Below, one piece after another: positions 5,996 to 11,967 of a DNA stretch of 64,000 nucleotides. Under the pieces are notes generated by a model. That model was not told where the DNA came from, made no database searches, and saw nothing but the letters and a program-made list of their open reading frames with translations. The position numbers and the translations under genes are program-made. Numbering within the stretch: position 1 is the stretch's first letter; each line of letters starts with the position of its first letter. Origin of the DNA: Armatimonadota bacterium (GTDB lineage: Bacteria; Armatimonadota; Fimbriimonadia; Fimbriimonadales; Fimbriimonadaceae); assembly GCA_018268315.1 (NCBI GenBank), contig JAFDWU010000002.1:597153-661152 (forward strand), read 5' to 3'.

Positions 5996-7594
5996 TTAGC
6001 GAAGCACGGAACCGATCGTTGTTGAACTGATCTTCGTGCCGGAGCCGTCTGGGCTGAAGCGCGAGAACTTCATCTGCACCTTGTCTCCCCACTTCATTGC
6101 TTGGACGCGAGACGAGACGTCAGAGCTCTTCCTCACGGATTGCCCATTGAACTCCTCAATCAAGTCGCCGGTGCGGATACCGTAGTTCCACGCTGGGGAT
6201 CCCGGCTCAACTTTAACCACGAGGGCGCCGTTCGCTCCCGGAGGAATCGAATAGTGCGAGCGCACATCACTGGTAACGTCGAGGAGGGTCACCCCAAGCC
6301 TAGCCGGCCCGCTTCGCTGAACCCTCGGTGCGTTCGGCGTATCCTGGAAGCCCTTAAGCCCAGGAACATCGAGGTCATCCGGCAGCTGATCCTTGAACTG
6401 CTTTCGCATCTTATCAAGGTCGCCGTCCGATTCCGGGTCCTGCGGCACTTGCGGAGTTGGCGCCAACTTCGCTGCAATCGCGTCAGCATCGCCGAGCTTG
6501 ACCGTCACCACGTTGCGGTTACCGCCGCGCAGCGTTTCCAATTTGACTTGATCGCCAGGGCTGAACTTCAAGAGTTCGTCGCGGAGACCGGTTTGATCCT
6601 TGATCGTAGTATCGTTGATGCGAAGGAGGACGTCCCCTTCCTTAATCCCAGCCTTCGCTGAAGGACCGTCGTTGATGATCGTGCGGACCACTACGCCGCC
6701 ATCGATATTCAATTCCTTCTGCCGATATTCCTTCACGTCCTCGGGAACGAGGCCGAGGGCAGGTCGATCAAGCTTGCCCTTGGTGATGAGCTTGTCGGCG
6801 ATCAGGTGAGCCTGGTTGCCGGGGATCGCAAAACCGATTCCGTTGCTGCCAAGCCCGTTCTGCGAGTAGATCGACGTGTTAATGCCGATGACCTTGCCGT
6901 CCGAGTTGATGAGCGGACCGCCGGAATTACCCATATTGATCGGCGTATCGGTCTGAATCAGAGTCGGATACACGCGATTTCCAATCTGATTTGCGCGCTC
7001 AAGCGCACTTACGTGGCCGATCGTCACAGAATTCTCGAATCCGAACGGAGAACCGATCGCCATCGAGAACTGGCCGGGCTTAACCTGGGAGGAATCCGCA
7101 AATTCAAGGCTCGGGAGATTCTTGGCGTCGATCTTTACGATCGCGATATCATTATTCTCTGCTCGGATGACCTTGCCAGGAAATTCTCGGCCGTCGTGGA
7201 GGATCACCGTGACTTTGTCAAAGCCGCCAACAACGTGATCGTTGGTGACGATGTAACCATCGCTGCGGTAGATAAAGCCTGACCCCTGTCCACCAACCTG
7301 TACTTGGTGCTGGAAGAGGTCTGACCGCTTACCTTCAGACATGATGTGCACAACCGCCTCAGTTGCGTACTGTGCTAGAGAAGAAACGGAGGCATCCAGA
7401 TTCTTCAGCGTCGCCAATCCTTCATTGACCGACGGATTCGCCGTGGTTGCCGCAGTTTGACGGAACGAAGCAACCGGCGATTGCGCTACAGCTTGCGATG
7501 GCCTAAAGCCATTCGACATCGAGACCATCGTCCCAGCGCCAAGCACAACGCCGGCAAGGAGAGTGCCGATTGCAAACGTGTTGGGTGATTTCAT
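5996..7594 (-). CDS. degP: HtrA/DegP-type serine protease with two PDZ domains
   Basis: 532 residues. An N-terminal hydrophobic segment (about 7-26) acts as signal peptide or anchor, so the protein is periplasmic. The trypsin-like triad is visible: His in TNDHVVGG, Asp in NNDIAIVKID and Ser in MGNSGGPL. Two PDZ domains follow, one around VVVRTIINDGPSAKAGI and one around LVVKVEPGSPAWNYGI. The family degrades or refolds misfolded envelope proteins. It is the last gene of the sigma/anti-sigma/protease module on the minus strand and has its own candidate ECF promoter at 7622-7651, matching the one before the sigma gene. An AAAGGAAT ribosome-binding site precedes the ATG. Confidence 0.93.
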   Translation of the reverse strand: MKSPNTFAIGTLLAGVVLGAGTMVSMSNGFRPSQAVAQSPVASFRQTAATTANPSVNEGLATLKNLDASVSSLAQYATEAVVHIMSEGKRSDLFQHQVQVGGQGSGFIYRSDGYIVTNDHVVGGFDKVTVILHDGREFPGKVIRAENNDIAIVKIDAKNLPSLEFADSSQVKPGQFSMAIGSPFGFENSVTIGHVSALERANQIGNRVYPTLIQTDTPINMGNSGGPLINSDGKVIGINTSIYSQNGLGSNGIGFAIPGNQAHLIADKLITKGKLDRPALGLVPEDVKEYRQKELNIDGGVVVRTIINDGPSAKAGIKEGDVLLRINDTTIKDQTGLRDELLKFSPGDQVKLETLRGGNRNVVTVKLGDADAIAAKLAPTPQVPQDPESDGDLDKMRKQFKDQLPDDLDVPGLKGFQDTPNAPRVQRSGPARLGVTLLDVTSDVRSHYSIPPGANGALVVKVEPGSPAWNYGIRTGDLIEEFNGQSVRKSSDVSSRVQAMKWGDKVQMKFSRFSPDGSGTKISSTTIGSVLR

Positions 7595-7621
7595 ATTTCG
7601 TAATTCCTTTCGCTAATTTTG

Positions 7622-7651
7622 GTTAACTTTGACCCTGATTGAATAGTTCCC
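7622..7651 (-). promoter_or_regulatory. Candidate ECF-sigma promoter of degP
   Basis: On the minus strand GGGAAC is followed after exactly 18 bases by GTTAAC, and the degP ATG is 28 bases further on. The GGAAC-type -35 with a TAAC-containing -10 is typical of ECF sigma promoters. The same arrangement lies upstream of the adjacent sigma gene. Confidence 0.55.
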
Positions 7652-7701
7652 GAATTGGGCCGCCTTTAGTCCAACAATCCCGAGCCTCGATGCAACGAGT
7701 G

Positions 7702-8118
7702 CTAGTGGTCTTGGTCAGATGGTGAAGACTTGCCAGGCGTCGCCAATTCCAGCGAATTGGTTTGCTGGACGTCCATCTGGTCGCCTGGTTTTGCAGGCGC
7801 AGGATTTCGCCAGAAGAAGAATCCCCCCGCAGAGGCCGCTGCTGCTATGGCTACCAAACCTAGCGAGCGAAAGCGGGACCTATCGGCCCTCACACGCTTC
7901 TCAGCGTGCAGCGCAACAAGCAAGTTACGCTCGAAGGTCGGGGAAGGTTCAGGGGACGACAAATTCATGGATAACAGCTTAACGGTTCGCAGTTCTTCAA
8001 ATTCCTGCGCGCACCGCGGACACCTTGAGATGTGCTTTCGAATGAGGATCATGTGCATGCCTGGAAGCTCCTGATCCAGGTAGGCGCTCATGTAGCTGCT
8101 GGCGAGACTACAGTTCAT
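7702..8118 (-). CDS. Membrane anti-sigma factor with zinc-finger (ZAS) domain
   Basis: 138 residues. The N-terminus holds the anti-sigma zinc motif HisX3CysX2Cys (KHISRCPRC, about residues 28-36). A single membrane helix (about 88-104, LGLVAIAAAASAGGFFFW) separates it from a short extracytoplasmic tail rich in Pro, Asp and Gln. The family binds and silences its ECF sigma factor until proteolysis releases it. Its start overlaps the end of the upstream sigma gene by 11 bases, so translation is probably coupled. The degP gene follows 107 bases downstream. Confidence 0.88.
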   Translation of the reverse strand: MNCSLASSYMSAYLDQELPGMHMILIRKHISRCPRCAQEFEELRTVKLLSMNLSSPEPSPTFERNLLVALHAEKRVRADRSRFRSLGLVAIAAAASAGGFFFWRNPAPAKPGDQMDVQQTNSLELATPGKSSPSDQDH

Positions 8119-8698
8119 CGATAACCCCCTCGTCGAATACGCCTGGAGCGAACTGTTTAAGATAATCCTTCAATTGTTTTCGAGCGCGGTGGATCCGTGA
8201 GCGAATGGTTCCAACCGATACCGACATCGAGTCGGCGATCTCCTCATATCCCATTCCTTCCACATCTGCCATCAAAAGCACCAGTCGGAAGTCTGGATTC
8301 ATTGCTCGAAGACCAGTCTGAATCCGAGTATCGAAAGTCTGATTAAGCAAGGCTTGCTCTGGACAGCCGCTGATATCGGCGATTTCCTTCGTTTCCTCAG
8401 TCAGATCGTAGGGCGGGAAAATCGCCTTTGTTTTCCGTTGCTTGCGGCACCGATCGGCATGAATTCGGCCCATGATCCTGTAAAGCCATCCCATGAACGA
8501 GTGGGCGGGATCGTAGCGATCAAAGAAGCGGTATGCGCGGATGTACGTTTCCTGCGTCAAGTCCTCAGCTTCCGCGCGATCTCCCGTGAGGCGATAGGCC
8601 AACTTGAACGCCTGGCTTTGGGTGCGCAGCATGATCTCTTCGAATTGCGCGCGATCCGCTTCGACTTTGGCGTTAGTTTTAGTGAGGGAAATTGCCAT
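8108..8698 (-). CDS. ECF-type RNA polymerase sigma factor (RpoE-like), partner of the ZAS protein
   Basis: About 196 residues from the ATG at 8698, which has an AGAGG Shine-Dalgarno seven bases upstream; a GTG at 8713 in the same frame is less likely. Sigma region 2 is seen at LAYRLTGDRAEAEDLTQETY, with the -10-binding helix RAYRFFDRYD and FMGWLYRIM. Region 4 is at GMGYEEIADSMSVSVGTIRSRIHRAR. It overlaps the anti-sigma gene and sits upstream of degP, the layout of an envelope-stress response. A candidate autoregulatory promoter lies at 8719-8748. Confidence 0.93.
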   Translation of the reverse strand: MAISLTKTNAKVEADRAQFEEIMLRTQSQAFKLAYRLTGDRAEAEDLTQETYIRAYRFFDRYDPAHSFMGWLYRIMGRIHADRCRKQRKTKAIFPPYDLTEETKEIADISGCPEQALLNQTFDTRIQTGLRAMNPDFRLVLLMADVEGMGYEEIADSMSVSVGTIRSRIHRARKQLKDYLKQFAPGVFDEGVIDEL

Positions 8699-8718
8699 TT
8701 GCTTGCCTCTCACAATCA

Positions 8719-8748
8719 GTTACGAAACTATAGCGTAATTTTGTTCCC
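8719..8748 (-). promoter_or_regulatory. Candidate autoregulatory ECF promoter of the sigma operon
   Basis: On the minus strand GGGAAC, an 18-base spacer and CGTAAC. The ATG of the sigma gene lies 20 bases past the -10. The motif and spacing match the candidate promoter at 7622-7651 before degP, which suggests one sigma factor reads both. Confidence 0.55.
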
Positions 8749-8749
8749 G

Positions 8750-9277
8750 TTATGCCAACAACATTTGTCGAAGCGATGGATCGCGGCGCATTTTTTCCAA
8801 CGCGCGCGCCAATCGCTGCCTAACCAGGTCGTGGTTAATTGTAAGTTGAGCGGCGATCTCCTTGGTAGGAAGATCTTCGTGGAATCGGAGATAGAGGATT
8901 GACCGGTCCGGCTCGGAAAAACCTTCGATCGCTCCCTTGAATACCACTTGTAGGTCCTGCTCGGGGTTGGGAGTGACCGCCAAATCGTCATTCAGCGGTA
9001 CGAAGCGGTCTCGGTGGGCGAGATTCTGGCGGCGGTATGCAAGAGCTACTTTGCGCGCAATGCCGGTAAGCCAGGCCTCCACGTCGCCCTTATTCTCATC
9101 GAAGCGATCAATTCGAGCGATCGCAAGGAATATAACTTCCGACGAAAGATCGTGAGCCTCGCTGCTAGGCAGGCCCATAAGAAGGAGCTTTCGCTCAATT
9201 TGCGGCAAAAAACGCCTAAGCGTAGCCTCAGTTAAACCCGAACCTGTGTCGCCAATCCCTCGGTTGGCTTCGCTCAT
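8750..9277 (-). CDS. Second ECF-type sigma factor
   Basis: 175 residues from the ATG at 9277, preceded by GGAGGAG five bases upstream (a GTG four codons earlier is out-competed). Region 2 is seen at LSSEVIFLAIARIDRFDENKG and WLTGIARKVALAYRR; region 4 at LRFHEDLPTKEIAAQLTINHDLVRQRLARALE. It ends two bases before the -35 of the first sigma operon and is transcribed in the same direction, but the clear promoter between them argues for separate control. The divergent gene at 9449 encodes a small zinc-finger protein that may be its anti-sigma factor. Confidence 0.88.
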   Translation of the reverse strand: MSEANRGIGDTGSGLTEATLRRFLPQIERKLLLMGLPSSEAHDLSSEVIFLAIARIDRFDENKGDVEAWLTGIARKVALAYRRQNLAHRDRFVPLNDDLAVTPNPEQDLQVVFKGAIEGFSEPDRSILYLRFHEDLPTKEIAAQLTINHDLVRQRLARALEKMRRDPSLRQMLLA

Positions 9278-9448
9278 CCACTCCTCCACTCAAAAGCAAT
9301 GCCTACCGGAAGGTAGGGCTTGGTTATTGTAATACGTTCTCGCCAAACCCTTCCCTAGCATTAATAACAGTTGTTGAAAATACGGGATAGATTCACAAAA
9401 CCATTATCGTACGTCACAATAAGTGGGTCTTGAGCCGAAACAAATTGT

Positions 9449-9655
9449 ATGGAGAATCCTCGTCTGACTGAAGACGACCGGCTAAGTTGCGAACAAGTCC
9501 GAGACTTGATGTTCTTGGTCGTAACCAATGACTTGGATGAGAAGTCGGCTGAGCAGGCGTTTGTTCACCTAGCCGGCTGTCCGGCATGTAGGCAAGTAAT
9601 GGCGGAACACGTCAAGCTTGCGGCCGCTCTATTTGGGACTCTGCGAAAAGAGTAG
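9449..9655 (+). CDS. 68-residue soluble zinc-finger protein, putative mini anti-sigma factor
   Basis: The protein has the ZAS-type motif HisX3CysX2Cys as HLAGCPACRQ near residues 47-55, after a helical N-terminus (CEQVRDLMFLVVTNDLDEKSAEQAF). It has no membrane segment. Membrane-less ZAS proteins can act as redox-sensitive anti-sigma factors. It is transcribed divergently from the second ECF sigma gene across 171 bases. No Shine-Dalgarno is evident before the ATG. Pairing with that sigma factor is inferred from position and motif. Confidence 0.65.
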   Translation: MENPRLTEDDRLSCEQVRDLMFLVVTNDLDEKSAEQAFVHLAGCPACRQVMAEHVKLAAALFGTLRKE

Positions 9656-9963: not shown

Positions 9964-11967
9964 TTAGAACTTAACGCTGAGCTGGGTGGTGATGAGACCG
10001 CCCTTAGCCGTGGTGTAGAAGGCACTGCCTGCGAACGGATTGAAAGCAGCTACACCCTTAGAGTCGTAGTCGCTGATCTGCCACAGGAAGCTGAGCTTAG
10101 CGCTGTCGCTGAGGTCGAAGCCCAGACCGATGTTGTACCATCGCTCCTTCGGCTTGCCGCCAGTGAAGTCGCTGGAAGCGCGATCCTTCAGATCCCAATC
10201 CACTTCTTCGTAACCCAGAGACAGGGTGTTGGTCGGAGCGAACTTGTAGTCCACGCCGATGTTGAAGTGGTCGAGCTTGTCGCTGGTGCTAAGGCCGCTA
10301 GCGTCCTTGCCGGTACCGGTGTAGATACCGCCGCTGACATTGAACTTCATAGTGGAGTTCATGTCATACGTGAAGGAGCCGTAGCCGCCCTTGATGTCGG
10401 TCGGGTTGTACCAGATACCGATTCGGCCCCAGTCTCCCGGAGCTGCGAAGAACGGGTTGATCTGGCGATAGCCAACCTTCAGGTTCCACTTTTCCTTACC
10501 GTAGCCAACCTGGCCCCAGTACGCATCATTGTTCTTGTTGAGAACATTGGTGTTGTTGTACTTAAGGTCAGACTTGCTGTAACCAGCCCACAGGTTGAAC
10601 ATGCCAACATCAAACTTGGCATCGCCACCGTAGACCTGAACGCTGTTAGCGCCACCGATGATTGCATCGGAGTTCAGCCAGAGGTAATCAAGGTTCAACA
10701 TGCCCTTGTCGCTCAACGGAACGCCCACGGTGGTACCGAGGACGGTGTTGATCGGGAGAGCGCCAGCAATACCAGCGTCGCTGTTAAGGCCACGCGGGCG
10801 ACCGCCAGAACCATCGAAGGTCGGCTCGAAAGCAGCCATGCTTCGACCGGCAACCATCGGCTGAACGCCGATTTCCTGGCCTACCGAGGTTCCAACATTT
10901 CGACCAAGCACCACGTTCAGGGTTGCCTTGCCAAAGTTGAAGCCCAGCATGCCGCCGTCAAGGGTCCACTTTCCATTGTCCCATCGCTCGTTCGAGAAGT
11001 ACGGGGTGGTATCCGGTCGCTGGAATGCGTAAGGGGAAACCTTAACGCCCATTCGACCAACCGTAGCGTCGAAAGCAAGCTTAGCAACGCTGGTATCGAA
11101 CTTCACCCAGAAGTCCTGAACGTAGAAGTCCTGAGGAGCTTCAACGAATGGCATTCCTTCGTTGGTGGTCGACTGAGAACCGAACGCACCGAAACCGAGC
11201 ATGTTGCCCGTTACGAGCGTGCCGCCCCACTTCGGACCAGTCTCGTTCGTACCCGAAAGCGAAATTGCGCCTTCATGAAGAACGGTCAGGTCTCGGAGAG
11301 CGCCGACGCGAGCTGCGCCGTCAATCGATCCGCCATAGTCGCCGCGGCCTACGCCGGTCGGTCGACCATCAACGGTGATACCGAAGCTGCTGCTCTGCGA
11401 GTAGCCGCCTGCTGCCCAGAAGTTCACGTCGCCGCTGATGTTCACCGGCATCTTTCGCTTCTCAAGAGCAGATACGCGAGAATCGATGTCCTTAAGACCC
11501 TTCTTCATCGCTTCGACGTCTACGCCCATGCCGCTGAGTTCCTTCTCGAACGAAGAGGTCATCTTCTTGAGCGCGGAGATGTCATCTCCCCAGCCCTTCA
11601 TCGAAGCAACATCAGACTTCAGCGCGTCGATAGCGGACTTCATGCTGTCCATATCTGCGCTGCCGCCAGGGGTACTAGACTTAGCTTCCATCGCCTTGAG
11701 GGATGCATCCATACCATCGACCACGTTCTTCAGAGCAACGTAGACTGCATGGCAGGCAACAGCCAATTCATAGCGAGTAGCCGGGCGCGGGCCGCGGAAC
11801 AATCCATCCGGATAGCCGATGAGAAGGCCTTCCTTCTTCATTCGCGCGAGAGCTTCATAAGCCCAGTGGTGATCCGGAACATCCGGGAAGTTTTCCTGCG
11901 CGATAGCCGGCAGAACCATAGCCGTCGCGAGGACTGTGCTGAGAGCGTACTTTAAGGTTCGCTTCAT
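9964..11967 (-). CDS. SLH-domain outer-membrane porin (OmpM/SlpA-like)
   Basis: 667 residues from the ATG at 11967, where a signal peptide starts (MKRTLKYALSTVLATAMVLPAIA). An in-frame extension to 12117 is unlikely. After the signal comes one SLH domain (FPDVPDHHWAYEALARMKKEGLLIGYPDG), then a helical coiled-coil spacer (about 75-155, KSAIDALKSDVASMK), then about 500 residues of alternating beta strands ending in a terminal Phe, the outer-membrane insertion signal. In Deinococcus, cyanobacteria and Negativicutes such proteins span the outer membrane and tether it to the cell wall. A putative AAGGAG ribosome-binding site lies 15 bases before the start. The gene is flanked by a strong terminator. 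Confidence 0.88.
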   Translation of the reverse strand: MKRTLKYALSTVLATAMVLPAIAQENFPDVPDHHWAYEALARMKKEGLLIGYPDGLFRGPRPATRYELAVACHAVYVALKNVVDGMDASLKAMEAKSSTPGGSADMDSMKSAIDALKSDVASMKGWGDDISALKKMTSSFEKELSGMGVDVEAMKKGLKDIDSRVSALEKRKMPVNISGDVNFWAAGGYSQSSSFGITVDGRPTGVGRGDYGGSIDGAARVGALRDLTVLHEGAISLSGTNETGPKWGGTLVTGNMLGFGAFGSQSTTNEGMPFVEAPQDFYVQDFWVKFDTSVAKLAFDATVGRMGVKVSPYAFQRPDTTPYFSNERWDNGKWTLDGGMLGFNFGKATLNVVLGRNVGTSVGQEIGVQPMVAGRSMAAFEPTFDGSGGRPRGLNSDAGIAGALPINTVLGTTVGVPLSDKGMLNLDYLWLNSDAIIGGANSVQVYGGDAKFDVGMFNLWAGYSKSDLKYNNTNVLNKNNDAYWGQVGYGKEKWNLKVGYRQINPFFAAPGDWGRIGIWYNPTDIKGGYGSFTYDMNSTMKFNVSGGIYTGTGKDASGLSTSDKLDHFNIGVDYKFAPTNTLSLGYEEVDWDLKDRASSDFTGGKPKERWYNIGLGFDLSDSAKLSFLWQISDYDSKGVAAFNPFAGSAFYTTAKGGLITTQLSVKF

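Follow-up and report, generated by a model that had tools for sequence, protein, structure and literature searches.

In an Armatimonadota genome and its family relatives, an ECF sigma operon and the degP protease gene linked to it carry promoter elements that share a GGAAC -35 motif but differ in the -10 core, which is GTA ahead of the sigma gene and GTT ahead of degP. Comparison of these sequences makes it likely, in our judgement, that the sigma factor (ECF-A) autoregulates its own operon while the degP element belongs to a GTT sub-type which, in this genome, matches a second conserved ECF factor, ECF-B, better than ECF-A. On balance we lean towards a wiring of the whole family by these two sub-types, in which degP would either receive input from two ECF factors or mark the point where a single sigma splits autoregulation from output by one base kept constant throughout the family.

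Promoter elements and genes of the locus

The window, that is the whole stretch of DNA analysed here, comprises 64,000 nt of Armatimonadota bacterium GCA_018268315.1 (contig JAFDWU010000002.1, positions 597,153-661,152, forward strand). ECF-A consists of sigma2 and sigma4 domains only, with a short linker between them (Pfam r2 at 30-94 and r4_2 at 130-181 in the 201-aa reading frame). The solved structures nearest to it are ECF SigE (9m9d, 3e-32) and then SigH, with SigW (5wuq) at 2.6e-22, and it scores 152.2 bits against the NCBIfam actinobacterial SigE equivalog (PRK09647), for which the cut-off is 265. The first 11 bases of the anti-sigma gene coincide with the last of the sigma gene, and its zf-HC2 product with a predicted membrane span provides the co-encoded anti-sigma by which ECF (group IV) factors are recognised. 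An ECF sigma, a membrane zf-HC2 anti-sigma and DegP thus stand together, in keeping with the envelope-stress setting proposed in the first-pass annotation.

Table 1. Positions and properties of the promoter elements and genes considered in this work
Feature	Position	Strand	Properties
Sigma-operon promoter element GGGAACAAAATTACGCTATAGTTTCGTAAC	8719..8748	(-)	GGGAAC-N18-CGTAAC; -35 GGGAAC, core GGAAC 8747-8743; conserved -10 core CGTA 8724-8721; core spacing GGAAC-N19-GTA; conserved in 87/87 orthologous loci
degP promoter element GGGAACTATTCAATCAGGGTCAAAGTTAAC	7622..7651	(-)	GGGAAC-N18-GTTAAC; -35 GGGAAC, core GGAAC 7650-7646; -10 core GTT 7627-7625; spacing GGAAC-N18-GTT; GGAAC-N18/19-GTT at 48/57 degP loci
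ECF sigma factor (ECF-A)	8108..8698	(-)	196 aa; Sigma70_r2 1.1e-15, Sigma70_r4_2 1.6e-16
Anti-sigma factor	7702..8118	(-)	zf-HC2 8.1e-8; one predicted membrane span (hydropathy), short outer tail
DegP/HtrA-type serine protease	5996..7594	(-)	two PDZ domains; Trypsin_2 1.8e-34, PDZ_2, TIGR02037 3.3e-110
ECF-B	G000:C2:56607-57131		own promoter GGAAC-N18-GTT

Both elements were found on the minus strand where that annotation had placed them, with the same -35 hexamer and a literal spacing of 18 in each. It had put them 20 and 28 bases before the start codons; the first distance is right for the sigma ATG at 8698, but the degP ATG at 7594 is 27 bases away. The pattern GGGAAC-N15..19-NNTAAC matches the window at these two places only, with 0.29 matches expected and at least two found in 4 of 100 shuffles. 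The in-window evidence for the pair alone is modest, and a match this near to chance becomes solid through the comparison with relatives. Counting by the numbering of Mycobacterium tuberculosis (Mtb) SigH (GTT = -11 to -9; PMC6411747), transcription is predicted to start near 8712 for the sigma operon (leader of about 14 nt to ATG 8698) and near 7616 for degP (leader of about 22 nt to ATG 7594). We prefer ATG 8698 as the start of ECF-A because the other candidate codon, GTG at 8713, would fall where transcription itself is predicted to begin. A sigma-70 promoter was considered as another reading and rejected, as none was found on the minus strand.

A second, divergent ECF sigma gene (window 8750-9289, minus strand) ends just upstream of the ECF-A promoter. 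No counterpart of this gene was found at the loci of relatives, a GGAAC element ahead of it is lacking, and its transcription could enter the sigma operon by read-through. A small zf-HC2 protein is encoded divergently from it (9452-9655, plus strand), and beyond this region lies the gene of a porin-like protein of the outer membrane with an SLH domain (SlpA_C / iron uptake porin; 9964-11967, minus strand).

Conservation of the two elements among relatives

Loci orthologous to that of ECF-A came from two sources, 85 genomes of its family and a scan in which each species was represented by one genome, and 200 bases upstream of each gene were examined. GGAAC-N17/18-NGTA was present at all 87 loci against 0.29 expected from its rate elsewhere in the same loci, and in every locus an in-frame start follows the element, at a median distance of 18 bases. 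AAC and CGT motifs, together with autoregulation, are hallmarks of ECF promoters (reviewed in PMC8103513), and an AAC (-35) and CGT (-10) of the group IV kind precede the sigma's own gene here, as GGAAC...NGTA in 87/87 loci and with CGTA at -10 in 69 of them. Column information reaches 2 bits at GGAAC and GTA and 0.9 at the preceding C and is at most 0.42 elsewhere; in the four columns past GTA it falls to 0.01-0.08 bits, and of the AAC that follows GT in the window only the first A is conserved. The -10 motif NNTAAC first read from the window therefore gives way to a conserved core of (C)GTA or GTT, the trailing AAC not being conserved at the relatives' loci.

The spacer before NGTA is N18 in 69 of the 87 loci, namely 67 of 71 family loci and two from Chthonomonadaceae, and N17 in the other 18, namely 14 from more distant Armatimonadota and the family loci L091, L121, L122 and L141. 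The shorter form runs through most of the deeper loci (L032-L047 and L053). Length of the sigma2-sigma4 linker was tried as the cause of this shift and set aside, the two N18 Chthonomonadaceae orthologues being long-linkered as well.

For degP we compared the 57 loci with a mapped start and room upstream, of which 48 carry GGAAC-N18/19-GTT against 0.61 expected at the rate in the same loci. The spacer is N19 in 37 matches and N18 in 12, one locus holding both. Three relatives in which degP is unlinked from the sigma gene were examined (G065, G069 and G072), and their degP genes have GGAAC-N19-GTT all the same; the element therefore goes with degP itself and does not merely reflect synteny. It is absent from degP in G060 and G061, two reduced genomes in which a close ECF-A orthologue was not found either (best match 1e-24 to 1e-25); as their degP regions are AT-rich and their ECF genes few, this joint absence is weak support for an ECF link.

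No locus swaps class: GTT occurs in none of the 87 sigma promoters and GTA in none of the 48 degP promoters (Fisher 1e-37, a value that ignores the kinship of the loci). Conserved far over background, the GGAAC/GTA and GGAAC/GTT cores identify both elements as ECF-type promoters, as the first-pass annotation had held. Its identical 18-base spacing, in contrast, arises from aligning on TAAC. On the GT core the window reads GGAAC-N19-GTA for sigma and GGAAC-N18-GTT for degP, so that the two promoters share neither the -10 core nor the spacing by which a single regulon would be recognised. The proposed common recognition sequence is thus borne out in part: both elements have GGAAC, but among the 87 sigma and 48 degP loci the GTA and GTT cores never change places.

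Genome-wide motif scans

The scan first suggested for finding further targets, with an NNTAAC-type motif, failed: GGAAC-N17/18-NNTAAC gave 33 matches, mostly inside genes, against 73 for the reversed control, and we rejected it as a regulon definition. The corrected GGAAC-N18-CGTW gave 37 matches, with 9 of 30 inspected promoter-like against 3 of 34 at the wrong spacing N24 (p = 0.03). With this modest enrichment the motif is usable but noisy, and single entries are leads only. In the window's genome it stands, among others, before the gene of an LTXXQ/Spy-family member and that of a secreted thioredoxin-like protein, and in relatives before those for LTXXQ/Spy-like, thioredoxin-like and fasciclin-domain proteins, degP and a protein judged DsbD-like by eye alone.

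Proposed assignment of sigma factors to the elements

Sigma-region-2 matches number 21 in the window's genome, and most sigma genes scanned there and in two relatives have no GGAAC-type element. The conserved ECF-B does, its orthologues (n=38) having GGAAC-N18-GTT in 30 cases and GGAAC-N18/19-GT[T/C] in 35. As this is the type of the window's degP element, a sigma shared by both elements of the window cannot be taken as shown. Log-likelihood ratios of ECF-A minus ECF-B type, which are descriptive since the models were trained on the autoregulatory sites themselves and these are phylogenetically related, put the sigma element of the window at +8.5 and the degP element at -6.7 (-8.3 under an A model without the four shorter-spacer family loci), the N19-GTT majority of degP elements lying between the types with a median of -0.9. 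Neither assignment is clean, for most degP genes of relatives combine an ECF-A-like spacing with an ECF-B-like triplet as GGAAC-N19-GTT.

We infer the sigma binding each element, the anti-sigma release and the inducing signal in the following scheme. Stress would free ECF-A from its membrane anti-sigma, and the freed factor would boost its own operon through the element at 8748-8719; such autoregulation is very likely given the conserved promoter. The element at 7651-7622 would act as a separate ECF promoter of the other sub-type, giving degP an output of its own besides whatever transcription runs on into it from the sigma operon, and would probably be reached by ECF-B or by ECF-A and ECF-B both.

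One sigma common to both elements is possible on these sequences. In this version of the first-pass model, with its motif corrected, ECF-A alone could read GTA and GTT and tolerate the one-base change in spacer, the last -10 base tuning strength, A for autoregulation and T for output. GGAAC is common to both elements, and most degP elements have ECF-A's N18-CG spacing (GGAAC-N18-CGTT). Spacing alone is weak evidence, because the ECF-A promoter itself varies among loci, the shorter spacer occurring at 4 of the 71 loci in the family and at 14 deeper ones. Operon structure and synteny also favour ECF-A control, degP lying a few bases past the anti-sigma gene in most deeper-branching relatives. 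LTXXQ/Spy and fasciclin candidates, moreover, differ between genomes in having CGTA or CGTT, so that one factor may read both. Against this stand the lack of any GTA/GTT swap over 87 and 48 loci, the presence of a second ECF factor with GGAAC-N18-GTT and the difference in both triplet and spacing between the window's two promoters. ECF factors are, besides, described as strict on -10 bases and spacer: Mtb SigH takes a -35 of GGAAYA and a -10 of GTT (-11 to -9) at an optimal, rigid 17-bp spacer with little tolerance (PMC6411747). We regard control by ECF-A alone as a tentative possibility, somewhat doubtful as it stands.

The strict split and the fit of the window's degP element to ECF-B in spacing and triplet would equally suit a degP read only by ECF-B or another GTT-type ECF, with ECF-A contributing through read-through alone. 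We think this unlikely: degP of relatives is mostly N19-GTT whereas 32 of 35 ECF-B promoters have the N18 spacer, a tie of ECF-B to envelope functions would be hypothetical, and no obvious anti-sigma gene adjoins ECF-B in the loci read. That the elements are alike by chance and without promoter function, as the 4 in 100 shuffles and the 33 to 73 count of the literal motif might suggest, is very improbable with both positions conserved over about 85 genomes far above background, also at unlinked degP genes.

Comparison with known systems

The genes for anti-sigma and HtrA adjoin the sigma gene in Mtb SigE (rseA-htrA-tatB; PMC10027907) as they do in the window, and SigE is the nearest solved sigma to ECF-A. 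The degP element has in turn the form that the Mtb SigH consensus takes at a 17-bp spacer, GGAAC-N18-GTT (PMC6411747). Unlike either system, the window's sigma gene has GTA and one more spacer base at its own promoter, and ECF-A stays below the SigE equivalog cut-off.

With gammaproteobacterial RpoE/AlgU systems (rpoE-rseA-rseB; algU-mucA-mucB-mucD) the locus shares the GGAAC -35 and, very probably, autoregulation. The likeness extends to gene order in most family relatives (L037 and most of L089-L147), where a MucB/RseB homologue is encoded by a gene of about 1 kb that separates the anti-sigma gene from degP. The genes for sigma, membrane anti-sigma, this homologue and the DegP-type protease thus follow one another as in algU-mucA-mucB-mucD. 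PF03888 matched 15 of 18 sampled genes of this kind (best 1.7e-10), the homologues often scoring weakly with Pfam one by one but standing out when taken as a family, and a MucB-like gene is present in 67 of 86 loci with an anti-sigma match. In more distant relatives it is absent and degP mostly follows within about 15 bases of the anti-sigma gene. The window locus differs from RpoE/AlgU in the absence of the MucB-like gene, a zf-HC2 anti-sigma, a separate degP promoter and a -10 of GTA/GTT, the E. coli type being TCTGA. Its anti-sigma also lacks a C-terminal tail resembling the DPxxGxP common to many relatives.

The consensus of Bacillus subtilis SigW is TGAAAC/CGTA. SigW is among the solved relatives of ECF-A and resembles the window's sigma element in its CGTA-type -10, but the -35 here is GGAAC and the operon content is different.

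The literature searched held no ECF promoter for Armatimonadota and, in a search on SigW/SigX, nothing on discrimination at -10. The circuit is mostly of a known kind in a little-studied phylum, and the strict GTA/GTT split is its unexpected part, offering a natural test of how ECF targets are partitioned by a single -10 base. The comparative data further provide two concrete recognition sequences conserved family-wide and show genes of the MucB/RseB type as part of a sigma operon in a group far removed from the Proteobacteria. At G000:C6:90162-91823 (L239, L281), in the window's genome, another ECF gene is followed by one for a distant MucB/RseB-like protein (E 1.4e-10 with the family profile).
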